Of a stretch of DNA of 24,749 nucleotides, positions 1 through 24,163 are shown piece by piece. Made by a program: the position numbers and the translations under genes. Below the pieces are notes generated by a model. The model worked only from the letters and a program-made list of their open reading frames with translations. It was not told the DNA's origin and searched no databases. Source of the DNA: a virus. Positions within the stretch are counted from its first letter, which is position 1. Every line of letters begins with the position of its first letter. The stretch spans positions 1 to 24,749 of the IMG/VR virus record IMGVR_UViG_3300042905_004733, one strand, 5' to 3'.

Positions 1-66
1 GAGACTGTACTCCACGAACGGGAACGCGATGCCGCCGAACGACATGCGCGCGAGCGTGATTGCCAT
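1..66 (-). CDS. Baseplate-side tail protein, 5' end only (cut by window edge)
   Basis: Only the first 22 codons are present. They start with ATG at 64-66, and AGAGG lies five bases upstream. The gene begins 9 bases after the tape measure stop, in the same operon. The visible N-terminus contains SFGGIAFPFVEYS. This resembles the opening strand of proteins that follow the tape measure in Mu-like phages (DNA circulation N-terminal / baseplate hub type), but the stretch is too short for a family call. The position just after the tape measure supports a role at the tail tip or baseplate. The ribosome site and reading frame are visible; the function is inferred from gene order. Confidence 0.6.
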   Translation of the reverse strand, partial: MAITLARMSFGGIAFPFVEYSL

Positions 67-3988: not shown

Positions 3989-5506
3989 TTAGGCCGAGTT
4001 GGAGATTTGCCGGATCACGTTGTCGACGCGGTGGAGGACGCGTCGGACCGCAAGCGGGGTGTCACCCTGGAGGTACTTGCCCGCCTTGTTGTACTGCACG
4101 ATCGGAGCCCACACGCCGACCGGTCGCTCTTCGAGCCAGCCGTTCGCGAAGTACTCCTGAAGGCGCGTCGAGAGCGCCGCAGCCCAGAGCTTCGGGTACG
4201 CCACACCAGCCGGAGGCGGCTCCTCGCCCTCCGCCGGATCGGGTCCGACGTACGGGTTCTGGGGACGGAACTCCGTCTCGTAGAGCAGCTTCGTGTCGAT
4301 CGTCGCGTAGTCGGTCATGACCGCGTCGCCGATGTCGAGGCAGCGCTCGTCCTGCGCCGAGCCGTTCAGCGAGTAGGACGTGATGGACCTGACCACCACC
4401 GCCTCGCCGTCGATCGTCGTGAGCGGGGTCACGCTCGCGTTGAGCGCCGAGTCCTGCTCCGTGTCCGTCGGCACGTCGGCGTCGAACGCCTGCGGCGCGA
4501 TGCCCGCGAGCACGAGACCGTCGTAGTCCGGAACCGGGTTCGCCTGCTCGTGCACCGCTCGGTAGGCCGCCTTCGCCGCGGCGATCTCGCACGGGTGCGA
4601 CTCCGCGTTGCGCATCCAGAGGACCTGCGCGCGGTACGCGTTCAGGGTCGTCTGCGCGAGGGAGGTCGCGTTCGCAAGAGCCCCGTTGTGCGCAAAGACA
4701 AGCTGCTCGAGCATGAGCGAGAGCGGGCCGGCCTTCGTGTTGACGTGCGTCTCCCAGAGGGCCGCGTTCGTCGTGTCGTTGTGGCCGACGGCGATGCGCG
4801 CGTAGCGCTTGCCGAGGAGCTTCGTGAGGAGCGTCGTGACGTCCTCCGAACCGGTGCCCGTGCCAGACGCGCCGAAGCGGTAGCCGCCCGTGTTCACCGT
4901 CGCCGAACCCGTGAAGGTCAGCGTCAGCGCCGACGGCTTGTCGGTGGCGTCGTGGTACAGGATCCAGTCCCGCCCGTTCGCACCCTTGTTCTTGATCGTC
5001 CACGTGAGCGTGTCCGAACCCGAGTTGTACGTGCACGTCGCGGGGAGGCGGGTCTTCGCCGTGAACGCCGCGGCAACCGCGTTGCCCACGTCGTCGAGCG
5101 CCATCGTCGCAGCGACCGCCACGTTGACCGACTCACCGGCAAGCCGGAAGCGGAGCGTTCCGTTGCTCACGGTGCCCGCGAGGACACACGTCACGGTCGC
5201 CTGCGTGCCCGCTCCGGGCTCCGTCACCGCCGCGAGGTAGACCTCGCCGCTCGGGACCTTGAGCGCCTTGTAGGCCATCCTGGCGAGCTGGGAGCCGGCT
5301 CCCGCGTACGCGTCGACCTCGTCCTCGCTCGTCACCCTGACGATGTCCTGGTCGGCCACCATCGAGCCCGACGCGGTCTTCATCCCCACGAGGAGGCACT
5401 TGAGTCGGTCCGCGCCCGCCGACACCGAACCGGCGCCGAAGACGATCTTCGCGATGTACCGCGGGACCTTGTAGGACGAGCTGATGCCCGTATCACCAAT
5501 GCCCAT
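3989..5506 (-). CDS. Contractile tail sheath protein
   Basis: This 505-residue protein forms the outer sheath whose contraction drives the tube through the cell envelope. It resembles Mu gpL-type sheaths: an N-terminal SYKVPRYIAKIVFG segment, a strand-rich insertion at about 95-215, and a helical C-terminal half. That half has EIAAAKAAYRAVHEQANPVPDYDG and ends in an LxVRRVLHRVDNVIRQI segment like the arm region of sheaths. The length is typical. The start is ATG at 5504-5506, with AAGGGAAG upstream overlapping the end of the preceding gene. It is followed by the 17-base-stem terminator and then the tube gene. Its presence makes this a contractile-tail (myovirus-morphology) phage. Confidence 0.88.
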   Translation of the reverse strand: MGIGDTGISSSYKVPRYIAKIVFGAGSVSAGADRLKCLLVGMKTASGSMVADQDIVRVTSEDEVDAYAGAGSQLARMAYKALKVPSGEVYLAAVTEPGAGTQATVTCVLAGTVSNGTLRFRLAGESVNVAVAATMALDDVGNAVAAAFTAKTRLPATCTYNSGSDTLTWTIKNKGANGRDWILYHDATDKPSALTLTFTGSATVNTGGYRFGASGTGTGSEDVTTLLTKLLGKRYARIAVGHNDTTNAALWETHVNTKAGPLSLMLEQLVFAHNGALANATSLAQTTLNAYRAQVLWMRNAESHPCEIAAAKAAYRAVHEQANPVPDYDGLVLAGIAPQAFDADVPTDTEQDSALNASVTPLTTIDGEAVVVRSITSYSLNGSAQDERCLDIGDAVMTDYATIDTKLLYETEFRPQNPYVGPDPAEGEEPPPAGVAYPKLWAAALSTRLQEYFANGWLEERPVGVWAPIVQYNKAGKYLQGDTPLAVRRVLHRVDNVIRQISNSA

Positions 5507-13311: not shown

Positions 13312-14964
13312 TCAGAATCCTCTGTCGGAGCCCCATCGCCCCGCGTTGCTCTTTGCCGCTGCCGGCGACATCGTCATGACCAGCGGCATCGACTGCGCCG
13401 AGTACACCGCGAGACACCCAGCGTCCGCTCGGTCCGGCGACCGGTTGAGCCGCTTCTTCGTGTCGTCCTTCGGCTCGACCACCTTCCGACCGCGAGGGTC
13501 GAACTTGTAGGTGGGAGTCAGCAGCTCCGATTCGAGCTTGCCGTCTTCCTCGCCCGCCATCGGGAAGATCGCTCCGCCGTCCTTAAGCCACTCCGGGAAC
13601 CCAAACCACAACTGCGACCGCATGTTGGGGAAGTGCTCCTCGTCGTCCGCCTTCGTCGACACGTTGATCTCGATGACCTCGATCTCCGACCGGTACGGCT
13701 CGACCTTCCGCAGTGTGTCCACCACGCCAGATCCCCACCCGCCGGTGCCGTCGATCTTCACTCGCGCCCGAGGCTCTCCGCTCTGGCGATGCATCCGCAC
13801 CACCGCGAGAATCGCCCCAGCAACCTCGATACTGTCGGCACCCGACCGCGTCTCGTACGGCAGAAGGTAGCGACCTCGACGCGGACAGATGACCGTCGAG
13901 TCATCGCCGAACCGCGCCACGTCGACACCGACCTCAAGAGGCCCATCACTCGGCCCAAAGAGCCGCGCGACCTCCTCATTCGATAGCCCCACCACACGGC
14001 CCGTCCCGTCCGTTGTTGGGTCGGCCATCTTCTGCGCGCAGAGTCGTCGGAACGCCTCCGCGAGGAACCGCTCCTTCGCCGCGTCAAGCTGCGCAAGCGA
14101 CACCACCGAGTTGACCGCCGAGCTCGGGAACTGCCCCAAGATGCGGATGCGGAACCACGGCGAGTCGCGACCAGCGTCCTTCTCTTTGCGCTGGATCGTC
14201 TCAGGCCTCATCAGCCCAGGGAACTCGTCGGCGTACTTCGACGCTTCCTCCGACGAGAGCGCGAACTTCTTCCACGTCGCCGCGCTCCGGTGGAACGCAT
14301 CGAAGAAGAAGCCGCTCGGCTGCGTCGGATTCGAGATCGCCAAGAGCCGCCCGAACTTCGATCCGCCGAGGTTGCCCTCGATGGCGTCAAAGATCGTGTT
14401 CGAGAAGCCCGAAGCTTCGTCGATGACGTACATCAACGTCGCGCCGGACGTGCCGGCCATGTTCTCACTCTTCGTGTCCGTGACCGAGAAGCCGATGATC
14501 TGGCGACCATCCTTGAAACGCATACCGCCCGCTGGCGTCTTCGCCGGCGATGCCCCGAGCGGCCGAGCCGCGCCGTTGCACACGTTGCGGAGCTCGTTCC
14601 AGAGGATCTCTCGCACCTGCCTCGCCGTCGGCGCGGTCATGATGACCTTCGCCCCCTCGAAGCAGCACACGAACCAAAGCGCCGCAAACACCACCAAGCG
14701 CGACTTGCCGCACTTCTGCCCCGACCGAATCGCGATCCGATCGCTCCCCACCACCGACCGGAGGATCTCCTCCTGCATCGGCCAGAGTCGGCAGTTCAGC
14801 ACGTCCCGCACGAACCCAACCGGATCCTCGCGGTACTCCGCAAAAGCCTCAGGTCCCTTCGGGATCCTCCCAGCCAACTTCGCCTGCTTCTGCCTCGCTA
14901 TCTCCTTCAGCCTCGTCGCCGCTAGTCTCGCCAGAAGCGATCGCGAGGACGCGTTCGTAGACAT
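13312..14964 (-). CDS. terL: Terminase large subunit
   Basis: This is a 550-residue DNA packaging motor with ATPase and nuclease domains. Walker A is RSGQKCGKS (about residues 80-88), and Walker B is LMYVIDEAS (about 177-185). The nuclease domain has VGVDVARFGDDSTV (Asp about 348), KIDGTGGWGSGVVD (Asp about 405) and RSPDRADAG near the C-terminus. All expected acidic positions are present, so it should be active. The start is ATG at 14962-14964, with AAGGAA upstream; a GTG one codon earlier is possible. It overlaps the small subunit gene by 116 bases in another frame. It translocates DNA through the portal encoded next. Confidence 0.94.
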   Translation of the reverse strand: MSTNASSRSLLARLAATRLKEIARQKQAKLAGRIPKGPEAFAEYREDPVGFVRDVLNCRLWPMQEEILRSVVGSDRIAIRSGQKCGKSRLVVFAALWFVCCFEGAKVIMTAPTARQVREILWNELRNVCNGAARPLGASPAKTPAGGMRFKDGRQIIGFSVTDTKSENMAGTSGATLMYVIDEASGFSNTIFDAIEGNLGGSKFGRLLAISNPTQPSGFFFDAFHRSAATWKKFALSSEEASKYADEFPGLMRPETIQRKEKDAGRDSPWFRIRILGQFPSSAVNSVVSLAQLDAAKERFLAEAFRRLCAQKMADPTTDGTGRVVGLSNEEVARLFGPSDGPLEVGVDVARFGDDSTVICPRRGRYLLPYETRSGADSIEVAGAILAVVRMHRQSGEPRARVKIDGTGGWGSGVVDTLRKVEPYRSEIEVIEINVSTKADDEEHFPNMRSQLWFGFPEWLKDGGAIFPMAGEEDGKLESELLTPTYKFDPRGRKVVEPKDDTKKRLNRSPDRADAGCLAVYSAQSMPLVMTMSPAAAKSNAGRWGSDRGF

Positions 14965-15496
14965 CACGGGGCAGTTCCTTCTGGAGACGATCGAGCATCG
15001 CCGTCATCTCGCGGTCCATCTCCACGCGCAGCGACTTCGGCTGGTCGAGCCCGTAGAGCGCCGCGATCCGCGTGCCCACCTTGATGCACACATCCGCCGA
15101 GTCCTTCGACGGAGGCTTGAGCGACCCATCCTCATCACGTGCGCCAGACATCCCACACGCGTACGGGTAGTGCGCCCGGTGAATCTCCAACAGGTCGTGA
15201 ACCTGCTTCCGCCGCAGAATCTCCGCGCTCGGCGCGGGCAGGTCGGCCAGAGCCTTCTGGATGGCTCTCCACGCCCCGCTCGGCTCGGAGTAGCCAAGCT
15301 CTTTGGCGATCTCATCCAGCGACCAGTTCATCGCCCGGAGCTCGCAGGCCCGCCTCCTTCTCTCCGCCGCCGTGTACTTCCGCATGAAGACCTTCGTCTT
15401 CGGCGGGCCAGGCTGGTGAGCCTCTTCCGCCTGCTCCACCGCCGTTTCCTCGGCAGTTTCGCTAGGCATTTCGTTTTGATCGGGCGCGTTCGCCAT
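14849..15496 (-). CDS. terS: Terminase small subunit
   Basis: This is a 215-residue DNA recognition subunit of the packaging motor. Residues about 45-85 form a helix-turn-helix (AERRRRACELRAMNWSLDEI, then KELGYSEPSGAWRAIQKAL). A helical oligomerisation part follows, and the C-terminus is acidic (SGDEAEGDSEAEAGEVGWED). I chose ATG at 15494-15496, with GGAGAG ten bases upstream; the in-frame extension upstream is Cys/Trp-rich and not protein-like. It is the first gene of the virion operon, after a 488-base non-coding gap. Its 3' end is overlapped by the large subunit gene. Confidence 0.88.
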   Translation of the reverse strand: MANAPDQNEMPSETAEETAVEQAEEAHQPGPPKTKVFMRKYTAAERRRRACELRAMNWSLDEIAKELGYSEPSGAWRAIQKALADLPAPSAEILRRKQVHDLLEIHRAHYPYACGMSGARDEDGSLKPPSKDSADVCIKVGTRIAALYGLDQPKSLRVEMDREMTAMLDRLQKELPRDVYERVLAIASGETSGDEAEGDSEAEAGEVGWEDPEGT

Positions 15497-15857
15497 GACT
15501 CGTTGACTCTCCGGAATCCCTTCGGCGACCCACCGCCACCGTTCAGAGACCCCAAAACACACCCACACGTCGCAAGATGCATGGACACTGCACGCACCTA
15601 GCGCGAACGATTCTGGCAACTTGCAGGCGACCTCTTGACATACCTCGGGCCGAGTGGTCCGATCTGTATGCCCTCGCGCGCACGCACGCGGTTACTGGTC
15701 ACCCTCTCACAAGGATCGACGCCACTGGCCACGCACACCCTCATTCGCCACGAGGGACGACGTCGCGACCGAGCCTGGCGACAAAATCGCACGCGTACAC
15801 CCTGACGTGTAGACCGAGCCCCGAACGGACCTACTTGGGTCGGCGCAGCCAACAGAA
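15497..15857. promoter_or_regulatory. Non-coding leader and probable late-control region
   Basis: No convincing gene is seen in this 361-base stretch. It precedes the first virion gene and must hold its promoter, but I find no strong minus-strand -35/-10 pair. That suggests an activator-dependent late promoter. An imperfect palindrome, GGTTACTGGTCACC, lies at about 15690-15703. A plus-strand TTGACA at 15635-15640 is the best sigma70-like hexamer. It points away from the virion genes, toward the terminator at 15858-15892. Confidence 0.45.
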
Positions 15858-16359: not shown

Positions 16360-16706
16360 GGCTTCGCCTCCTTCGGCGGGATCTGCGATGCGGCGCTGGC
16401 CACCTCCAAAAGAAGGCTCCCGAGTGTGTCACGCAGAAGCATGGCGGCACTTCGGCTCCTGGATTCGTCGCCCGCCGCAACGGACACACGAAGCCTTCCC
16501 ACGCAGTCGTGGACCCACTCCGGCTCGCGGTCGCCACATGCGACACAAACCCGTACATTCGGGCTCGCATGCTCCGCGAGGATGAGCGCATCGCCAATGA
16601 TGCCGCCCGCCTCGCGAAGCGCGATGTCCACCAGTTCACGCGCCTTGACCCAGTCGTCGTTGTCGACCGCCTCCTGAAGCATCCTGACCCTCGACTCGAT
16701 GCGCAT
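16356..16706 (-). CDS. Unknown small protein with a CxxC-x11-C segment
   Basis: This is a 116-residue protein, not recognised. It starts with a helical MRIESRVRMLQEAVDNDDWV, then a central NVRVCVACGDREPEWVHDC that could be half of a zinc-binding site. A Ser/Ala-rich helical end follows (SAAMLLRDTLGSLLLEVASA). The start is taken as ATG at 16704-16706, overlapping the upstream stop as TGATG; a GTG one codon upstream is equally possible. Coding is supported by the operon of overlapping neighbours. Confidence 0.72.
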   Translation of the reverse strand: MRIESRVRMLQEAVDNDDWVKARELVDIALREAGGIIGDALILAEHASPNVRVCVACGDREPEWVHDCVGRLRVSVAAGDESRSRSAAMLLRDTLGSLLLEVASAASQIPPKEAKP

Positions 16707-17119
16707 CACTTCTCTCCTGTCTTCGCCGCGAGTCGGTCGATGACCATCTCGAGGCGTTGCTCCGTCAACCTAAGTCGCGCTTCGAGGTCGTCCACCTTCT
16801 CTTCGGTCGCTTCGGTCTTCGACTGAAGGAATTCGAGCTCCAACTGAAGACGGTCGTTGTCCTCGAACCAGTTCGCCGCAAGCTTCTTCAGCGCCGCGAC
16901 GGAGACCGTCCACCGCGGGCGCTTGTCGCCGAAGGACGCGTCGATGAGCAGCCGGCCGCCCATGCGCTCGTTTGCCTTGATGAGCAGTCGGTACATGCGA
17001 CGACGTGACCACCCGACCATGCGAGCGACCTGCGGCGGGGTGAGAACGTGCTCCGGGTCGCGGACCGGTGTTCCTGGCTTTGCCGGTCTTGGGTCCGCCA
17101 GCTTCGCCAAGGCGCTCAC
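16706..17119 (-). CDS. Helix-turn-helix / coiled-coil protein
   Basis: This is a 137-residue protein. Residues about 25-50 form a predicted helix-turn-helix (LTPPQVARMVGWSRRRMYRL), the kind used by MerR/excisionase-like proteins (PPQVARMxGxSRRxMYRL). Residues 80-135 are a continuous coiled coil (LQLELEFLQSKTEATEEKVD, then LEARLRLTEQRLEMVIDRL). It probably binds DNA as a dimer and could be a regulator of this operon; that is inference. The start is GTG at 17117-17119, sharing one base with the upstream TAG, with AAGGAGG seven bases upstream, a very strong site. Confidence 0.8.
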   Translation of the reverse strand: MSALAKLADPRPAKPGTPVRDPEHVLTPPQVARMVGWSRRRMYRLLIKANERMGGRLLIDASFGDKRPRWTVSVAALKKLAANWFEDNDRLQLELEFLQSKTEATEEKVDDLEARLRLTEQRLEMVIDRLAAKTGEK

Positions 17120-17358
17120 TACGCGCCCTCCTTCGGGCAGACGCAGAGGATCGCCCGCTCACGCACCTCGAGAAGGGCGCCGTTCTTGCACTCGACTGAA
17201 GCCGCGATCGTCGTCTCGGTGTAGCTCTCCTCGCACGCAGGACCATCGGCAAGTCCGGTGACGAGTCGGGTCACACTGGCCCCAAGGAGGAGTCCGGCCA
17301 AGGCCATCTTGATGAGATCGCCGAGTGTGCCGACGAATGGTTCGTCGAGTCGTCTCAC
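17119..17358 (-). CDS. Small membrane protein with C-x14-C-x14-C-x-C ectodomain (copy 1)
   Basis: This is a 79-residue protein. A short charged N-terminus (MRRLDEP) precedes one hydrophobic helix at about 12-36 (with Lys17 and Arg31), then a 40-residue tail with Cys42, Cys57, Cys72 and Cys74. The cysteine spacing and several other positions match the protein at 21497-21853 exactly, so the two are paralogues. I chose GTG at 17356-17358, which overlaps the upstream stop as GTGA and has GGGGGAAG upstream; a TTG four codons earlier is the alternative. The tail most likely lies outside the membrane, with two disulfides or a bound metal. Function unknown; an envelope-modifying role such as superinfection exclusion is possible. 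Confidence 0.75.
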   Translation of the reverse strand: MRRLDEPFVGTLGDLIKMALAGLLLGASVTRLVTGLADGPACEESYTETTIAASVECKNGALLEVRERAILCVCPKEGA

Positions 17359-17999
17359 GGCTTCCCCCAAAGGCGCTCGTGCGTCGCCTGCAGGGCCACT
17401 TGCAGCGCCTTGTCTCGCTCGCCACGACGTCGCTCCCTGTCCTGCCTCTCGAGCTCTTTACGGGCCAGCATGAGCGTCACGTAGGCGTCCACCGTAGGCA
17501 TGAGCTCGTAGAGCGCGTCGCGGAACAGTCGCTTCAAGGTCTCCACCGGCGCCTTCTCCAGCAGCGCGAGGAGTTGGTCCTGGTCAGGCATCACGAGCGA
17601 TTCGTGGTGGCTCGCCCACGCAACGCGCATCGCTCGCGAGTGCAGCACATACCCGAGGATCGACGCGCGCTCGAATCCGAAGGTCACCTCGAAGTGAGTC
17701 GCGATCCGATGCTCCACCCTTCCGCCTGGCGCGAAGGCCAGCTTCAGCGCGGCGCGCTGGTCAGGCTCTAGCGCCCAGAGCGTCGAGTCGATGGCGCGCA
17801 TCCGGTTCACCGCCCACCGATGCTTCTCGTCTCGGAGGGACATGTGGAGCTCGTGCGAGGCCGCAGCGTCGAACACCTTGGCGCCCTTCACGTCGCCCAT
17901 GTTCTGCGCGCGGATGCCGATCGCTGCCTCCGCAGAGTGGAACCGCCAGACAAGCTCGTGCATCGCGTCCCGCCGAAGCGGGGTGTCGTTGTCGTTCAT
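17355..17999 (-). CDS. Unknown protein heading the last right-hand operon segment
   Basis: This is a 214-residue, mostly helical protein, not recognised. It contains ELVWRFHSAEAAIGIRAQNM, HELHMSLRDEKHRWAVNRMR, and a basic C-terminal helix (ARKELERQDRERRRGERDKA). ATG is at 17997-17999, with GGAAGGAGGG upstream, a strong site. It follows a 139-base gap that contains a one-mismatch copy of the GACAGTCCGC motif. It is the first gene of a coupled set running to the terminator at 15858-15892. No enzymatic motif is seen. Confidence 0.8.
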   Translation of the reverse strand: MNDNDTPLRRDAMHELVWRFHSAEAAIGIRAQNMGDVKGAKVFDAAASHELHMSLRDEKHRWAVNRMRAIDSTLWALEPDQRAALKLAFAPGGRVEHRIATHFEVTFGFERASILGYVLHSRAMRVAWASHHESLVMPDQDQLLALLEKAPVETLKRLFRDALYELMPTVDAYVTLMLARKELERQDRERRRGERDKALQVALQATHERLWGKP

Positions 18000-18030
18000 G
18001 CGCGCGACCCTCCTTCCGTCGTGCGCCGTT

Positions 18031-18040
18031 GCGCACTGTC
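18031..18040 (-). promoter_or_regulatory. One-mismatch copy of the GACAGTCCGC motif
   Basis: The minus strand reads GACAGTGCGC, preceded by GGT to give GGTGACA, 32 bases upstream of the ATG at 17999. It is in the gap between the sliding clamp gene and the next gene. No good -10 is seen at normal spacing. Confidence 0.35.
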
Positions 18041-18103
18041 ACCATTCATTGCACGCGCGCGGCCATCTCGCAACGACACGCGCGGGCAATGTCTTGGTGG
18101 GAC

Positions 18104-18129
18104 GGCGCGCCGAGTCTCCCCGACGCGCC
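18104..18129 (-). terminator. Possible terminator hairpin after the sliding clamp gene
   Basis: Arms GGCGCGTCG and CGGCGCGCC pair over nine positions (one G-U), with an eight-base loop, ten bases after the clamp stop codon. No T-run follows, so termination would be inefficient or of another type. It could instead stabilise the 3' end of the mRNA. Confidence 0.4.
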
Positions 18130-18138
18130 TCCGGCCCT

Positions 18139-19245
18139 TCACGCACGCATCGGCATGATGACGGTCGTCGTCGTGTCGCGGGTCAGCTTGATCGGGTCCA
18201 TCTCGCCACCCGTTGCCAACGTGACCGTGCCGTCCTCGAACGCATCGCACGCCTGGCACACGTACTCGCCGGCCACCGCGATCCGAAGGCCATCGCTGCC
18301 CCACGTCGTCTCGGCCTTCACGATGTCCTCGGAGTCGCCTCCCTCCGGATCGCTCGTGCTGACCTTCACCTCGTCGCTGCCCTTCTTGAGCTCGATGACG
18401 ACGCGTCGGCCCGTCACCTTCGTCGAAGCCACCGCCACCGCCATGACGACGTTCTTCAGCGACGGCGCGTGGATGTCGATCGTGCGCTTCGCGTCCGTCT
18501 TCGGGACCACCTGCTCCCACGGTGGGAATGTCGCGTCCACGAGCGACGTGTGGAACCGGTACCCGCCGAAGTCGAAGAACGCCTTGGTCGGAGTGCTCGT
18601 GAACGTCACCGACTCGCACGTGTCGCAAAGCCGACGCACCTCCGCCAGGCTCGCCCGCGGCACCAGAAGCCGGAACGTCGCGATGCCGTCGAGCTTCGCC
18701 TCCGTCACGTGGAGACGGTGCCCGTCCGTCGACACGATGCGAAGCGTGTCGTCGACGCGCTCGAACAGCGCCGCGTTCAGATGTGCCCGCGTTTCGTCGA
18801 GCGAGATCGCTCCGAACACCCGATCGATCGCCGTCGCCAGGATGCCGCTCGGCAGCGTGTGGGCCACGCTCTTGTCGGCCGCTTCCGGCGTCGGCGGGTA
18901 GTCGTCGCCGGGGATCGACTGCACCACGAACTTGCGTGCCGAGCCCGATGCCGACAGCGTCGCGCGACCCTTCTGCACCGCCAGGATGACCGGACCGTCC
19001 GGCATCGCCTTGACGCGCTCGAGGAGCGGCTTGCCCTGGATGCACACGCTGCCGTCGGTCTTCACCTCCGAATCGATCTGCGTCGACGCGCCGATCTGAA
19101 GGTTCGTCCCGCGCAGCGTGAGCTTGCCGCCTCCCGTCTCCAACAGGACGTTGGACAGAACCGGCATCGTCGACTTCGTGTCGATGAACCGGCTCACCGT
19201 CGACAGCGCCGCGACCATGTCCTTCTTTGCGAACGTGACGTGCAT
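18139..19245 (-). CDS. dnaN: DNA polymerase III sliding clamp, beta subunit
   Basis: This is a 368-residue protein, the usual clamp length. The N-terminus (MHVTFAKKDMVAALSTVSRF, then STMPVLSNVLLETGGGKLTL) matches the first clamp domain. The middle has AISLDETRAHLNAALFE and IVSTDGHRLHVTE, equivalent to the conserved 'xTDGHRLA' region. The C-terminus ends TTVIMPMRA, the classic clamp ending. It should form a dimeric ring that tethers a polymerase to DNA. All three domains are present, so it looks functional. ATG is at 19243-19245, overlapping the DUF2158 gene stop as TGATG, with GAGGGGAAG upstream. Clamps are uncommon in phages of this size; it may replace or hijack host polymerase III tethering. 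Confidence 0.94.
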   Translation of the reverse strand: MHVTFAKKDMVAALSTVSRFIDTKSTMPVLSNVLLETGGGKLTLRGTNLQIGASTQIDSEVKTDGSVCIQGKPLLERVKAMPDGPVILAVQKGRATLSASGSARKFVVQSIPGDDYPPTPEAADKSVAHTLPSGILATAIDRVFGAISLDETRAHLNAALFERVDDTLRIVSTDGHRLHVTEAKLDGIATFRLLVPRASLAEVRRLCDTCESVTFTSTPTKAFFDFGGYRFHTSLVDATFPPWEQVVPKTDAKRTIDIHAPSLKNVVMAVAVASTKVTGRRVVIELKKGSDEVKVSTSDPEGGDSEDIVKAETTWGSDGLRIAVAGEYVCQACDAFEDGTVTLATGGEMDPIKLTRDTTTTVIMPMRA

Positions 19246-19475
19246 CAGGACTTCCCCTCGTAGCGGGCCGACGGATCGACCTCGAAGTGCGTGATGGTGT
19301 CCACGTGGAACCACCCCTGCTTCAGCGTCGGATCTCCGCCGAACCACTGGCAGTGCGCTCTCAGTTGGTCGCCCGCACCGTCGAGCTCGATGTCGACCAC
19401 CGTCATCTTCGGACCCTTCGAGTTCAGGACCACCACATCACCGACCATAAACTCTTCGTATGCCTCGTCGCTCAT
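19245..19475 (-). CDS. DUF2158 (YodC-like) small protein
   Basis: This is a 76-residue protein. The core FMVGDVVVLNSKGPKMTVVD followed by RAHCQWFGGD matches the DUF2158 pattern (VGDxVxLxSGGPxMTVxx...CxWF), a small SH3-like family of unknown function found in bacteria and phages. ATG is at 19473-19475 with GAGGTGAG just upstream. It directly precedes the sliding clamp gene with one-base overlap, so the two are likely made together. The 64-base gap upstream carries two GACAGTCCGC copies. Whether it acts with the clamp is unknown. Confidence 0.85.
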   Translation of the reverse strand: MSDEAYEEFMVGDVVVLNSKGPKMTVVDIELDGAGDQLRAHCQWFGGDPTLKQGWFHVDTITHFEVDPSARYEGKS

Positions 19476-19501
19476 CTCTCACCTCTACTCGCGCGACATG
19501 C

Positions 19502-19543
19502 GCGGACTGTCCTCAGTAGGCGCACGCCGATGCGGACTGTCAA
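19502..19543 (-). promoter_or_regulatory. Promoter with two GACAGTCCGC copies 30 bases apart, ahead of DUF2158-dnaN
   Basis: The minus strand has TTGACAGTCCGCATCG, with the dUTPase stop codon inside the TTGACA (19538-19543), and a second GACAGTCCGC at 19502-19511. Seventeen bases after TTGACA is CCTACT, a weak -10. The first 16 bases are identical to the element at 22769-22796. The two motif copies start exactly 30 bases apart, about three helical turns. Confidence 0.55.
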
Positions 19544-19962
19544 CGGCCCGTCGAACCAAATCCGCCGCTACCTCGTTCCGTCGACGTCAGCTCGTCGACC
19601 ACCGACACTGCCACGTACGAGACCGGCACCACCACCATCTGGGCGATACGGTCGCCCTTGCGCACCGCGTACGCGTTGCCGTGCGTCGCCAGCACCGCGC
19701 TCACCTCGCCTCGGTAGTCCGAGTCGATGATGCCCACCGATGGCGCGTACACGTGCCCGCTCGACGCGATGCTCGAACGCAACACCAGCATCCCGGCGAA
19801 GCCTTCTGGGATCTCGCACGCGAACCCAAGCGGGATGCGTCGCGTCTCGTACGGCATGATCCGCACGTCCTCGCGGGCGTAGCAGTCGAGCCCCGCAGCG
19901 CCCGCCGTCTTCCGCTCTGGCGCTCGCCCGCCGTCGATGACCTTGACCTTCAGCCAGCGCAC
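19540..19962 (-). CDS. dut: Deoxyuridine triphosphatase (dUTPase)
   Basis: This is a 140-residue trimeric dUTPase that hydrolyses dUTP to dUMP and keeps uracil out of phage DNA. All five motifs are present: AGLDCYA (23-29), LRSSIAS (61-67, with Leu where Pro is usual), GIIDSDYRGEV (77-87), GDRIAQMVV (103-111) and RGSGGFGSTG (130-139). Length is typical. The start is GTG at 19960-19962, overlapping the previous gene by 13 bases, with GAGG close upstream; no in-frame ATG fits. Its stop codon lies inside the TTGACA of the next promoter. It ends the first right-hand operon. Confidence 0.94.
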   Translation of the reverse strand: MRWLKVKVIDGGRAPERKTAGAAGLDCYAREDVRIMPYETRRIPLGFACEIPEGFAGMLVLRSSIASSGHVYAPSVGIIDSDYRGEVSAVLATHGNAYAVRKGDRIAQMVVVPVSYVAVSVVDELTSTERGSGGFGSTGR

Positions 19963-20390
19963 TTGGCCTCGCCTGCGACTTCGACGGCCGTCTCCGTGTC
20001 CACCTTTCCGCCGAGGAAGAGGATCGCGTCATTCACCAGCGACTCCCTGTACGACGGGAAGGATTCCATGGCGCGTGTCAGACGACGGTACGCCTCGCCA
20101 CTCCGCGCACGGAGCTCTTCGTTCTCGGCCCGAAGCTGCCTCAGTTCGGCGAGTACCTCCGGCATCGCACGGACGACTCGACGAAGGTCGCGAGTGCACT
20201 CATGGGCATAATCCGCCGCGTCACACTGCGCGTCTCGGGTCATCGGAACCGGTCCGAACTGGATGCGAGCCACGACGCCGTGGACGGGGTCGATCTCGAC
20301 TTTCACGCTACCCCTCACGAGGTCATAGACGTTCGCGACGCGCGTCTCCAGCACGTCGATGTTTTCGGTTTCCAGGATCTTCGTGGTCAT
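19950..20390 (-). CDS. Unknown coiled-coil protein
   Basis: This is a 146-residue protein, not recognised. Its N-terminus is strand-rich (LVRGSVKVEIDPVHGVVARI), and the middle is a short coiled coil (VLAELRQLRAENEELRARSG). It ends GEAKCAG, the same KCAG ending as the protein encoded just upstream. I chose ATG at 20388-20390, because AAGGAG lies nine bases upstream. An ATG at 20421-20423 overlapping the previous stop (ATGA) would add 11 residues but lacks a ribosome site. It overlaps the dUTPase start by 13 bases. Confidence 0.75.
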   Translation of the reverse strand: MTTKILETENIDVLETRVANVYDLVRGSVKVEIDPVHGVVARIQFGPVPMTRDAQCDAADYAHECTRDLRRVVRAMPEVLAELRQLRAENEELRARSGEAYRRLTRAMESFPSYRESLVNDAILFLGGKVDTETAVEVAGEAKCAG

Positions 20391-20438
20391 GTGGTCTGTC
20401 TCCTTGTTGTGTCCCAGTGTCATCCAGCGCACTTGGCC
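19954..20438. repeat. Two 15-base identical gene-junction repeats
   Basis: CCAGCGCACTTGGCC occurs at 19954-19968 and again at 20424-20438. Each copy spans the 3' end of one gene; on the minus strand the codons read Lys-Cys-Ala-Gly then TGA. Extended to the stop codon, they agree at 18 of 19 bases. The intervening 455 bases are essentially one gene, so that gene is bracketed by direct repeats. Confidence 0.7.
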
Positions 20439-20662
20439 GCCTTCTTCGCCGCACTCTCCGCGGACCGGATGACCGCTCGCTCGCAGTCGCGAACGCGGAG
20501 GATCGCTTCGACGGCGTCGTGGTCGCCGCTCGCGTTCAGGAGTCGAACGACGGCTTTTCGAAGCTTGTCGATCGAACTATCGCTCGGGTTGTGCTCGATG
20601 TTGACGAGCTTGATGTAGAGTCCAGTGGGGTCTCTGCCGTACACGACCTTCGGCTTCTTCAT
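20420..20662 (-). CDS. Small basic unknown protein
   Basis: This is an 80-residue protein (MKKPKVVYGRDPTGLYIKLV at its start), not recognised. It is followed by a helical part, SSIDKLRKAVVRLLNA, and it ends AAKKAAKCAG. I chose ATG at 20660-20662 because AAGGAGG sits exactly six bases upstream. The ATG two codons earlier would touch the Shine-Dalgarno itself. It lies 14 bases after the resolvase gene in the same operon. No function can be assigned. Confidence 0.72.
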   Translation of the reverse strand: MKKPKVVYGRDPTGLYIKLVNIEHNPSDSSIDKLRKAVVRLLNASGDHDAVEAILRVRDCERAVIRSAESAAKKAAKCAG

Positions 20663-20676
20663 CTTCATCCTCCTTG

Positions 20677-21156
20677 TCACGCTGCCTTGGCCATCACCTG
20701 CCGGGCCGCGAAGCACGCGATACCCGCCGCGTCTCGGTGGTGCGAGTTGGACCGCGTCGGCCATCCCTTCACCAGTCGCGAGATCGCAACCTTCACCTGC
20801 GCGTCCGTCGCCGCGGCCTTGCCGACGATCGCCTTGCGCCACTCGTTCGCCGTCACCGTCACGACCGTTCTGTTCCCGGCGATGCCGGCGCAGAGACCCG
20901 CGACGAATGCGGTGTCCATCAAGGCAGGGACGACTCCGCCTCCCTTCGCGTTGAAGGCGATGCCGCGCGGGCGCTCGATGGCGACGATGTCCCATGGGAA
21001 GAGGCTCCCCATCCATCGCGCTACATCCAGATGGTTGCTCTGGACGATGTCGACCGAACCGAAGCTCACCTTCCCGTCATCAAGGTAGAGCGACGCGAAG
21101 CCGCACTGCTTCGGCCCGGGGTCGATCCCCAAGATGCGGATGTGGTTGCGGATCAT
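20677..21156 (-). CDS. RuvC-like Holliday junction resolvase
   Basis: This is a 159-residue RNase H-fold nuclease. The first strand carries ILGIDPGPKQCGFAS (catalytic Asp12), the second acidic site is VAIERPRG (Glu61), and the C-terminal site is HHRDAAGIACFA (His140, Asp142), matching the RuvC DxG...E...HxxDA pattern. The length is near that of RuvC (about 170). It would cut branched recombination or replication intermediates before packaging. ATG is at 21154-21156, overlapping the upstream stop as ATGA. It is encoded in the replication block with DnaB, DnaN and dUTPase. Confidence 0.9.
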   Translation of the reverse strand: MIRNHIRILGIDPGPKQCGFASLYLDDGKVSFGSVDIVQSNHLDVARWMGSLFPWDIVAIERPRGIAFNAKGGGVVPALMDTAFVAGLCAGIAGNRTVVTVTANEWRKAIVGKAAATDAQVKVAISRLVKGWPTRSNSHHRDAAGIACFAARQVMAKAA

Positions 21157-21500
21157 CTCGACACCTTCGGTGGCTTCTCCGGCGACGCGAACCCGCCAGG
21201 AATCGTCTCGATTCGGACGAGGTACGTGATGGTCGTACGGAACTCGTGCGGGTAGTCGTCATGCCTCGCACCGATGTCGATCGACGTCGTCGACCGGATC
21301 TCGTTGGCGATGCGCCACTCGTCCGCCGCGACGCTCACGACCTTAGCCGCGGCCCCTGCGTAGTCCGCGTGCTCGCGCCACGAACCTGCGTTGTACGGGT
21401 AATGCTGCGTCGGTCCCATCGGCTGCGGGCCGTTGTGTCTCGTCACCGAGAGAGGCTCGGTCTCCCCGACGCGGTAGTAGCTGACGGTCCATCCACTCAC
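21153..21500 (-). CDS. Unknown protein in the replication operon
   Basis: This is a 115-residue protein, not recognised. It is rich in Tyr, His and strands: GWTVSYYRVGETEPLSVTRH, then VVSVAADEWRIANEIRSTTS, and a strand ending ITYLVRIETIPGG. It has no cysteine and no membrane segment. The start is GTG at 21498-21500, overlapping the stop of the membrane protein gene (GTGA), with GGAGGTGTGAG upstream. It is coupled to the resolvase gene downstream (ATGA). Nothing shows its role. Confidence 0.76.
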   Translation of the reverse strand: MSGWTVSYYRVGETEPLSVTRHNGPQPMGPTQHYPYNAGSWREHADYAGAAAKVVSVAADEWRIANEIRSTTSIDIGARHDDYPHEFRTTITYLVRIETIPGGFASPEKPPKVSR

Positions 21501-21853
21501 CTCACACCTCCGTCATGCCCGCACCGGCAGACGATTCCGCTGGCGCTCGTCTCCACCGTCGCTCTCGCGTCACACTTGACCTCGTACTGGTATCCCGGCG
21601 GGTGATAGGTCTCGATGCACGGCGGAGGTGCCGGAGCAGGAATCGCCGCACACGCGCGAATCGCCTCACCCGTCGCGATGACGACTGAGAGCCCGACGAA
21701 CGCGGACAGGATCCTCGGCGCCCACACGGCACGCTGCGTCGCCTTCGCTTCTTGGTATGCCTTCGCCGCGTCCTTCGCGAGACGCTCCGCCCCGATGTAG
21801 GCCGCTTGCGCGTCCGCGATCGTCGGCTCATGAGGTGTCGTTCTGTAGGTCAT
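21497..21853 (-). CDS. Membrane protein with C-x14-C-x14-C-x-C ectodomain (copy 2)
   Basis: This is a 118-residue protein. Residues 1-42 are a soluble helix rich in Ala/Lys/Glu, residues about 45-66 a membrane helix (RILSAFVGLSVVIATGEAI), then a Pro-rich linker (AIPAPAPPP). The tail has Cys79, Cys94, Cys109 and Cys111. Its tail aligns with the one at 17119-17358 without gaps: same cysteine spacing plus shared Glu, Ser/Thr, Tyr, Val, Ala, Glu and Ile positions. The N-terminal part is longer than in copy 1. ATG is at 21851-21853, overlapping the upstream stop (ATGA). The topology with the tail outside is inferred. Function unknown. Confidence 0.78.
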   Translation of the reverse strand: MTYRTTPHEPTIADAQAAYIGAERLAKDAAKAYQEAKATQRAVWAPRILSAFVGLSVVIATGEAIRACAAIPAPAPPPCIETYHPPGYQYEVKCDARATVETSASGIVCRCGHDGGVR

Positions 21854-22395
21854 GACCCGCTCCTGTACTTCTCGCGCATCTCCGCCTCGCGAATGGCGCG
21901 TTCCTCTCGGGCCCGCTGCTCCGCTCGCTCGACTCGGTCCAGCATCTTGCCGACGACCTCGCGCAGGTTTCGCTCCGTCACGCGTTCGCGGTTGTCGCCG
22001 ATAAGCGACTTGATGCAGACCTCCGATTGCGTGCCACCGATCGATTGCCAAAGCTCGATGCCCGCATTGGCCTTCATCGCTCGCACGAGAAGGCACTCAC
22101 GCTCCGCGAGTTCCTTCGCCTCCCGCTCGGTTCGCTGGTTGATCCGGTAGACGATCGGGCCCGCTTCGTTGAAGCCGATGCCTCGCGCGACGTAGTCGAG
22201 CGTCTGCTCCAGTTCGGCGATGCGCTTGTGCGCCTCGGCAAGGCTATCTGCGAGAGCCACCTTGTCGTGTAGCCCGGCAGCGCCACACGCATCGCGCAGG
22301 TCCTCGACCGTCGCATCGGGCAGCCCGCTCTTGCCCGTCACATCGACGACGAGGCGGACGCGCACCGTCTTGTCCCATTCGATTGGCTTGGTCAT
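21850..22395 (-). CDS. Unknown coiled-coil protein
   Basis: This is a 181-residue protein, not recognised. Residues 1-45 are a folded start (TVRVRLVVDVTGKSGLPDAT), then helices (LAEAHKRIAELEQTLDYVAR; REAKELAERECLLVRAMKAN). It has a long charged C-terminal coiled coil (LREVVGKMLDRVERAEQRAR, then EERAIREAEMREKY). ATG is at 22393-22395, overlapping the upstream stop (ATGA). The sequence further upstream in frame overlaps the zinc-finger gene and is not protein-like. Function unknown. Confidence 0.8.
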   Translation of the reverse strand: MTKPIEWDKTVRVRLVVDVTGKSGLPDATVEDLRDACGAAGLHDKVALADSLAEAHKRIAELEQTLDYVARGIGFNEAGPIVYRINQRTEREAKELAERECLLVRAMKANAGIELWQSIGGTQSEVCIKSLIGDNRERVTERNLREVVGKMLDRVERAEQRAREERAIREAEMREKYRSGS

Positions 22396-22742
22396 CGCGA
22401 CAGTTCTCCAAACTCTGCGAGGGTGTAGATCACCTTCGCCCGCACGTAGGCCGGCTGGATGATGTCTGGCTTGCGGACATAGGCCCACTCCCGCTCGACG
22501 TGGGCGAGCTCCTCGTCGCCAAGGTCGTAAGGCACGATCATCTCCTGCTTCGTGTGATGGCACACGAACAACGAACCGAGCACGCAGAGACGGCACATAC
22601 GGAACTCTGGTGGAGCGCTCGTGTACCAGTTGAAGTCGCGCGGCATGGGAAGCGACAAAGCACGAGCGCGGATGAGGCCAGTGCCGTTGCAGGCTCCGCA
22701 GCGTCTGGCGACGCAGTGGCATGGTGGGTGTCTGAAAATCAT
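22392..22742 (-). CDS. Small zinc-finger protein with DnaJ-type CxxCxGTG motif
   Basis: This is a 116-residue protein. The N-terminus has CHCVARRCGACNGTG (Cys8, 10, 15, 18), where CxxCNGTG resembles one repeat of the DnaJ zinc-binding domain. A second group, MCRLCVLGSLFVCHH (Cys50, 53, 61, His62-63), could complete the metal site. The C-terminal half is acidic and helical (DLGDEELAHVEREWAYVRK). I chose ATG at 22740-22742 because it has GAAGG upstream and follows the promoter at 22769-22796. In-frame sequence further upstream runs back through the helicase gene's end. A role in DNA or protein binding is inferred. Confidence 0.8.
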   Translation of the reverse strand: MIFRHPPCHCVARRCGACNGTGLIRARALSLPMPRDFNWYTSAPPEFRMCRLCVLGSLFVCHHTKQEMIVPYDLGDEELAHVEREWAYVRKPDIIQPAYVRAKVIYTLAEFGELSR

Positions 22743-22768
22743 GCGACTACCTTCGGCATCGTCCCGAC

Positions 22769-22796
22769 AAGGTAGCCATGCGATGCGGACTGTCAA
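22769..22796 (-). promoter_or_regulatory. Promoter with GACAGTCCGC motif ahead of the long operon
   Basis: The minus strand reads TTGACA (22791-22796), 16 bases, then TACCTT (22769-22774), 26 bases before the ATG at 22742. The -35 is a perfect consensus; the -10 is weak, and the spacer is one base short. GACAGTCCGC overlaps the -35 (22785-22794). It lies in the only sizeable gap after the helicase gene. Confidence 0.6.
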
Positions 22797-22810
22797 CACC
22801 TGTAGCGCGG

Positions 22811-24163
22811 TCAGTACCCGTCGAAACCGTCGTCCGAAGAAGACGACGTCGCATCGACGAACGTCGTCAGATCCCCGCGCCATCCGACCGAGACCACGCC
22901 AGGTTGCCCGTTGCGGTACTTCGCCACGATGACCTCCGCCATCTCCGTCTCGCCAGGCTTCGCCTCTGTCTTGTCGTAGTACGCCTGTCGGTAGACGAAC
23001 ATGACCGTGTCCGCGTCTTGCTCGATGGCGCCTGACTCGCGGAGGTGCGCGAGGTTCGGCCGACCGTCCTTCGTCTTCTCCGCCTCGCGAGAGAGCTGCG
23101 ACAGCAGGATTACCGCGACCTTCTCCTGCTTCGCCAAGGTCTTGAGTGCCTTCGTGATGTTCGCGACCTCCTCCTCCCGCGTACCATTCCGCCGAGTCGT
23201 CTCAGGCGTCATGAGCTGAAGATAGTCGATGACCACGGCGCGAAGTGCACCCTTGCCGCGCTTCTCGAGCTCTCGCCGCGTGTGCCTCGCGAAGGCTCGC
23301 ACTTCGCTCAGGGTGAGCCCCGGCTTGTCGACCGTCGCCACGTTGGCCTTGCGGACCTGGTCGAAGGCCCCGACGAACGCCGCACCGTACCGCGCCTGTT
23401 CTCTCACCGCGCGAAGGAACGGCGCGCCAACGGGTCCAGCGATCGCGCGTCTCGCCATCTGGCCGTTCGGCATCTCGAGGGAGCAGAAGAGCGAGTTCCC
23501 GGTCGCCATCGCGTACTGGCTCGCGAGAGACGACTTCCCCATCCCTGGTCGGCCCGCGATGATGACGAGCTCACCGGGCATGATGCGGAGCTTCGCGTCC
23601 AGTTCTGCGATGCCGCTGAACGCGGTCGGCACATCCTCGTTGCCTGTCGTCCGAAGGCTTTCGATCTCTGCCTTCAGTACCTCGTCGACGAAAACCGGCT
23701 TGTACTCGGCCGCGTCGAGCTTCGTGGCAGCCTCGAGCTTGCCCATCGTGTCGCGGATGAACTCCTCGGCCGACAACTTCCCCGCGTACCCGATCGCTTC
23801 CGACTCTTGGAGCGCACGGAGCAGCGCGCGGGATCTCGCAAGGTCGACGACGATCCTGGCGTACTCCTCGGTCTTCCCGAATGAGTACTCCGCTCGGCCA
23901 GGCGTGAAGCTGTCGAACACGTGAGCGTCGACGACACCCGCGTCGCCGTTGCGTCGCACTCGCGCCTGAAGCTGGATGACGTCGGGCACCTTGCCCTCGG
24001 CGACGATGTCCGAGAGTGCCTTCCACGCGCGAGAGTGCGCCTCGGAGTAGAACGCCTCCGGCTTCACCGTCGCGACCAGGCTATCCAGGTCCGCGCCATG
24101 GTCGGAGATCGATGCCGCGATGAGCGCGCACTCGGCCTTCAGGTCATGAGGCGGTGCGCTCAC
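22811..24163 (-). CDS. dnaB: Replicative DNA helicase, DnaB family
   Basis: This is a 450-residue hexameric helicase. The N-terminal domain (1-105) is the DnaB helical collar region (ECALIAASISDHGADLDSLV). The RecA-like domain starts near 180 with AFSGIAELDA and has Walker A GRPGMGKS (204-211), Walker B VVIDYLQLM (310-318), the Gln sensor LLSQLSRE (353-360), then NLAHLRESGAIEQDAD and the KYRNG arginine-finger region (415-419). All key residues are present. The start is GTG at 24161-24163, overlapping the upstream stop (GTGA). It unwinds DNA ahead of the polymerase; no phage polymerase is in this window, so it may work with host enzymes. Confidence 0.95.
   Translation of the reverse strand: MSAPPHDLKAECALIAASISDHGADLDSLVATVKPEAFYSEAHSRAWKALSDIVAEGKVPDVIQLQARVRRNGDAGVVDAHVFDSFTPGRAEYSFGKTEEYARIVVDLARSRALLRALQESEAIGYAGKLSAEEFIRDTMGKLEAATKLDAAEYKPVFVDEVLKAEIESLRTTGNEDVPTAFSGIAELDAKLRIMPGELVIIAGRPGMGKSSLASQYAMATGNSLFCSLEMPNGQMARRAIAGPVGAPFLRAVREQARYGAAFVGAFDQVRKANVATVDKPGLTLSEVRAFARHTRRELEKRGKGALRAVVIDYLQLMTPETTRRNGTREEEVANITKALKTLAKQEKVAVILLSQLSREAEKTKDGRPNLAHLRESGAIEQDADTVMFVYRQAYYDKTEAKPGETEMAEVIVAKYRNGQPGVVSVGWRGDLTTFVDATSSSSDDGFDGY

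Follow-up and report, generated by a model that had tools for sequence, protein, structure and literature searches.

Two small membrane-type proteins with a shared cysteine-framed tail in a contractile-tailed phage

Two small genes in the packaging and replication operons

The DNA analyzed herein, IMG/VR record IMGVR_UViG_3300042905_004733, comprises 24,749 bases (the whole stretch is hereafter called the window) and is probably a fragment, given that the record is classed as linear. All of the window genes with family matches lie on the minus strand, where a series of a tape-measure-sized gene, tail sheath, neck/head proteins, protease, portal, and terminase is followed by a replication block made up of sliding clamp, dUTPase, RuvC, and DnaB. 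The source of the window is therefore a contractile-tailed phage (myophage). Two small genes, termed A and B, are embedded in this layout, A in the pre-terminase operon and B in the replication operon, and their position near the clamp, dUTPase, RuvC, and DnaB genes suggests that they would be expressed early or midway through infection. The features of the region are as follows.

16706..17119, minus strand: helix-turn-helix / excisionase-like regulator, directly downstream of A (phrog_66, E 2.7e-4)
17119..17358, minus strand: gene A, GTG start, 79 aa (translation)
17122..17253, minus strand: tail of A, the shared domain (match to profile A2)
17355..17999, minus strand: 214-aa gene directly upstream of A, its sole match a weak one to phrog_18883 (a family of unknown function)
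18139..19236, minus strand: DNA polymerase sliding clamp (phrog_947, E 1.5e-65)
20677..21156, minus strand: RuvC-like Holliday junction resolvase, two genes downstream of B (phrog_159, E 6.7e-11)
21153..21500, minus strand: 115-aa gene directly downstream of B, without a family match
21497..21853, minus strand: gene B, ATG start, 118 aa (translation)
21506..21634, minus strand: tail of B, the shared domain (match to profile A2)
21850..22398, minus strand: charged 182-aa gene directly upstream of B, without a family match
22811..24163, minus strand: DnaB-like replicative helicase (phrog_19, E 2.3e-81)

Two other minus-strand genes may be recorded here. The one adjoining the DnaB helicase gene (22392-22883) encodes a protein that is rich in Cys and contains a DnaJ-like CxxCxGxG stretch, and the one preceding the terminase large subunit (14849-15619) matches a PHROG labelled "RNase E" (E 1.2e-20); the position of the latter suggests a terminase small subunit, and the PHROG label may be wrong.

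Translation confirmed the coordinates that the first-pass annotation had given for A and B and placed both genes on the minus strand, which it had left unstated; a plus-strand reading was rejected, as both stretches contain stops. Gene A reads MRRLDEPFVGTLGDLIKMALAGLLLGASVTRLVTGLADGPA-C-EESYTETTIAASVE-C-KNGALLEVRERAIL-C-V-C-PKEGA and consists of a short N-terminus (17 residues), a helix at approximately residues 12-37, and then the tail, with cysteines at C42, C57, C72, and C74. Its start overlaps the upstream stop as GTGA, and its end overlaps the downstream start as TAGTG; an alternative start, TTG at 17370, would make the protein 4 aa longer. Gene B, which ends in APRILSAFVGLSVVIATGEAIRACAAIPAPAPPP-C-IETYHPPGYQYEVK-C-DARATVETSASGIV-C-R-C-GHDGGVR, has a charged helical N-terminus of about 45-47 aa, a helix at approximately residues 48-69, a Pro-rich linker, and a tail with cysteines at C79, C94, C109, and C111, and it carries a fifth cysteine, C68, just past the helix. 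An AGGAG precedes its ATG, which overlaps the upstream gene as ATGA, and the overlap with the downstream gene is GTGA. Because their starts and stops overlap neighbors on both sides, A and B are very probably real, and probably co-translated, genes.

Each protein had been credited with a single hydrophobic helix, and this stands for both, with maximum 19-residue mean hydropathies of 1.70 (A) and 1.81 (B), although the helix of A is weak and is bordered by Lys and Arg. No other small protein among the 24 of the window has a membrane-like helix; the remaining high-hydropathy stretches fall within the soluble enzymes TerL and RuvC. The charge distribution (A: N-terminus 3+/3-, tail 4+/8-; B: N-terminus 7+/5-, tail 5+/6-) provides a weak positive-inside bias. 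No lipobox cysteine was found in either protein by direct reading, as the -3/-2 pattern is missing from IRAC and GPAC, and no clear signal-peptidase site was seen in the sequences. The label of putative envelope proteins, which the first-pass annotation gave to A and B, is drawn from hydropathy and cysteine content.

A tail common to A and B

The first-pass annotation regarded A and B as paralogues on account of their tails, and the cysteine arrangement on which it relied, C-x14-C-x14-C-x-C, is reproduced upon translation with identical 14/14/1 spacing in both. The other shared residues are likewise as described (E at +2, S/T at +3, Y at +4, and V at +13, then A at +4, E at +7, and I at +13), and we found one further match, a Gly 4 residues past the last Cys. 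For four randomly placed cysteines, the chance of identical spacing is approximately 1e-4. Further, the ungapped alignment of the two tails scored 55, against a shuffled mean of 21.1 (sd 3.8, maximum 41 in 6000 shuffles), which extrapolates to p ~7e-6 per pair and to ~0.002 over all pairs among the 24 genes, and direct comparison of A with B gave E = 0.001 in BLASTP and E = 5e-5 in phmmer (a single comparison). The assertion that chance agreement is unlikely is therefore upheld for the tail as a whole, yet with the cysteines held fixed, the remaining positions alone reach only p ~0.01-0.02, so that most of the signal comes from the cysteine frame. That frame is itself rare: across 1.32 Mb of phage DNA, most of it related, it occurred exactly in 5 of 18,150 reading-frame stretches, two of which were copies of a single locus. 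When loosened and required to follow a hydrophobic stretch, it occurred once in the same DNA, in a 188-residue stretch.

Structure models were examined for a common fold. The AlphaFold2 models of A and B were built from a two-row alignment, such that each prediction included the other sequence. In A, the model places a helix at residues 12-37 and strands at 45-47, 62-65, and 70-73, and in B, helices at 12-43 and 48-69 and strands at 82-84, 98-103, and 106-111. Counted from the first tail cysteine, the strands lie at +3..5, +20..23, and +28..31 in A and at +3..5, +19..24, and +27..32 in B. This matching three-strand layout is consistent with one predicted fold, in which a small beta hairpin terminates in C-x-C, in models of low-to-medium confidence (tail pLDDT ~67-80; whole-model means of 59 and 60). 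A Foldseek search with both models returned no match better than E 2, an outcome to be expected for models of this confidence.

Taken together, these comparisons argue that the two tails very probably descend from a common ancestor, and hence for two paralogues sharing a tail domain, a view supported by the sequence statistics and weakly by the strand positions in the models. The competing explanation, that the two small membrane proteins are unrelated and arrived at a short cysteine frame by convergence, draws on the modest similarity left once the cysteines are fixed, on N-terminal parts that cannot be aligned, and on the lack of a duplicated block among the neighboring genes; we consider it quite unlikely in the face of the whole-tail and phmmer values, the rarity of the frame in phage DNA, and the presence of both genes within one 25-kb fragment. 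As to how the pair arose, duplication inside one genome fits, and it is equally possible that both genes were acquired from a broader family not yet seen. A segmental duplication that included the neighbors was rejected, as the genes flanking A and B either differ in their family matches or have no match, and no block of similarity was observed.

Searches for further members and a CDGSH near miss

Neither protein could be placed in a known family. Searches of Pfam, NCBIfam, PHROGs, and PADLOC returned no match better than E 0.1 for A or B, and no relatives of either were found among PDB sequences or among phage and plasmid records. Peptide seeds recovered no close relatives in IMG/VR (A and B) or in GTDB genomes (B only), and a scan of IMG/VR with the A/B alignment gave no match. 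DNA-pattern scans of IMG/VR, combining the cysteine frame with its conserved neighbors, yielded 6 and 12 matches, none of which placed the full frame after a membrane helix within a single open frame; most were broken by stops or lay within Cys-rich, low-GC frames. Such seed and pattern scans detect close or fixed-spacing relatives, and a diverged family could escape them. The tail profile, which recovers A and B in the window, found no match in 30 related virus records (gathered via capsid, terminase, and clamp) and no third member in 148 + 396 actinobacterial genomes, where the best matches, both rejected, were a CDGSH protein and a 49-aa reading frame lacking part of the cysteine set. On the 30 virus records, a looser pattern gave roughly the number of matches seen with a reversed control and was set aside as chance. 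The refutation that had been set out for the kinship of the tails, membership in two different known families, was not borne out by any of the families searched, and within the libraries searched the family is, as was proposed, an undescribed one, with two members.

The CDGSH protein deserves closer consideration, as it is the closest outside match to the tail profile and the reason for retaining a metal-binding alternative. Specifically, the match aligns VECSDGTLLEVRNRMTLCRCG with VECKNGALLEVRERAILCVCP of A over 22 positions, with 14 of 21 residues identical (E 7.6e-5 for one of the 148 genomes), and covers a strand and its entry into C-x-C. The matched protein (L119, genome G092, at approximately 1501-1632) is actinobacterial and contains two CDGSH-type motifs, the second hairpin of which resembles the A tail up to C-x-C. 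In such an alternative, the cysteines would bind zinc or Fe-S, or exchange disulfides, and the tail might face the cytoplasm. The CDGSH domain (PF09360) does share with A a beta strand running into C-x-C; however, it continues into a C-D-G-S-H half that A and B lack, and the C-x14-C-x14-C-x-C spacing is not part of it. Both proteins end soon after C-x-C, the pattern C-x-C-x2-(S/T)-x3-P-x-C-D-G-(S/A/T)-H is absent, no C-D-G-S-H stretch was found in another frame, and PF09360 gave no match to the window at a threshold as permissive as E 10. Given also the shortness of the match, a metal or redox microdomain appears rather unlikely, and we treat the likeness as probable convergence, judged from sequence, on a hairpin with C-x-C.

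Possible roles at the host envelope

Phages commonly carry small accessory membrane proteins, and an A/B pair alone is thus no surprise. In environmental phages, the functions of small membrane proteins are almost never assigned. If the kinship of the tails is true, an undescribed two-member family would join the poorly charted small membrane proteins of such phages, and its cysteine fingerprint would offer a means of finding further members.

The reading that we prefer, with a probability of roughly one in three (0.35), is that A and B are diverged copies of an accessory envelope protein with a disulfide-held outer domain, acting foremost in superinfection exclusion. Each protein would reside in the host cytoplasmic membrane with its N-terminus inside and its tail outside, the outer part forming a beta-hairpin microdomain of about 35 residues with two disulfides among the four tail cysteines. 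The differing N-termini (17 versus ~47 residues) may link the same outer domain to different cytoplasmic partners or oligomers. In this way, A and B would modify the envelope of the infected cell, for example by closing off the channel through which the DNA of a second phage enters, as with SieA of phage P22, an inner-membrane protein that blocks DNA injection (PMC10883804). Like A and B as proposed here, SieA is phage encoded, located in the inner membrane, and envelope acting (PMC10883804), but it has 162-164 aa and three predicted membrane helices and is expressed from a prophage; the exclusion role is a guess drawn from class and position. An envelope-guarding role is favored given the probable expression with replication genes, the patchy presence, and the lack of a lysis context. 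The paired or competing sensor, exclusion, or anti-exclusion role raised in the first-pass annotation would likewise be conjectural.

The patchy presence can be seen in one relative. In L069, the one relative with a comparable early region (ordered clamp, DnaB, HTH, terminase), no A/B-like gene was seen, which suggests that A and B are accessory genes. Directly before its HTH gene, at the place where A would have been expected, stands a 219-aa, soluble-looking protein, whose similarity to the gene preceding A is not significant (E 0.056). A separate observation from the early region of L069 is a small protein (4373-4795) that has a hydrophobic helix at its N-terminus and a lysozyme-like stretch, "YRESSLDNSAIGD", possibly a SAR-type endolysin. 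The closest relative of the window phage by capsid (61%) and sheath (78%), with the tape measure at 68%, is JAAFHT010000025.1 (L060/L103), a contig from an Actinomycetota MAG. Its capsid gene was recovered from none of 197 further genomes sampled from that order; the contig may thus be mis-binned or a free phage, and the host link is doubtful.

A role in lysis timing offers a second way to read the same architecture, in which A and/or B would be sensors of the antiholin kind, with an outer domain that binds a holin or detects an incoming phage, comparable to T4 RI, which acts as an antiholin in the periplasm and is believed to sense superinfecting DNA (PMC8385771). A small exported protein with an outer domain fits the general layout of RI, which is likewise small and has a hydrophobic segment at its N-terminus followed by an exported C-terminal domain (PMC8385771), and A and B as a pair could be antagonists. 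However, the signal peptide of RI is cleaved, whereas A and B show no such cleavage site by eye and lie outside a lysis module: no recognized holin or endolysin was found near either gene, the window stops before any lysis module, and in JAAFHT010000025.1 the small membrane or lipoprotein-like (lysis-like) genes are located past the tail genes, far from the A and B positions. Spanins (i-spanin, o-spanin, and unimolecular) are also small phage envelope proteins, but A and B have neither lipobox, long periplasmic coiled coil, nor lysis-cassette context. As both genes sit in replication and packaging operons, lysis proteins are the less likely, and we regard a part in lysis timing as unlikely.

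Alternatively, A and B could serve neither exclusion nor lysis and be membrane factors with a structural or assembly role, or proteins that take over the host by acting on an envelope enzyme. Their place within replication and packaging operons is functionally neutral, but nothing positive supports such roles, and the absence of the genes from L069 argues against them; we hold this to be a tentative option, somewhat unlikely. Far more speculative, and very improbable in our estimation, is that the tail represents a new minimal Cys microdomain, extracytoplasmic or membrane proximal, through which A and B pair as a membrane sensor of envelope redox or phage entry, by way of either a disulfide-linked heterodimer or a split metal/Fe-S site to which each contributes one C-x-C.

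Finally, two further genes on the reverse complement of L103 (12112-12477 and 13572-13901) encode small proteins with an N-terminal hydrophobic segment, a lipobox-like Cys (in the stretch LSSC for 13572-13901), and Cys-rich C-terminal parts, and both lie near a possible cysteine-peptidase gene.
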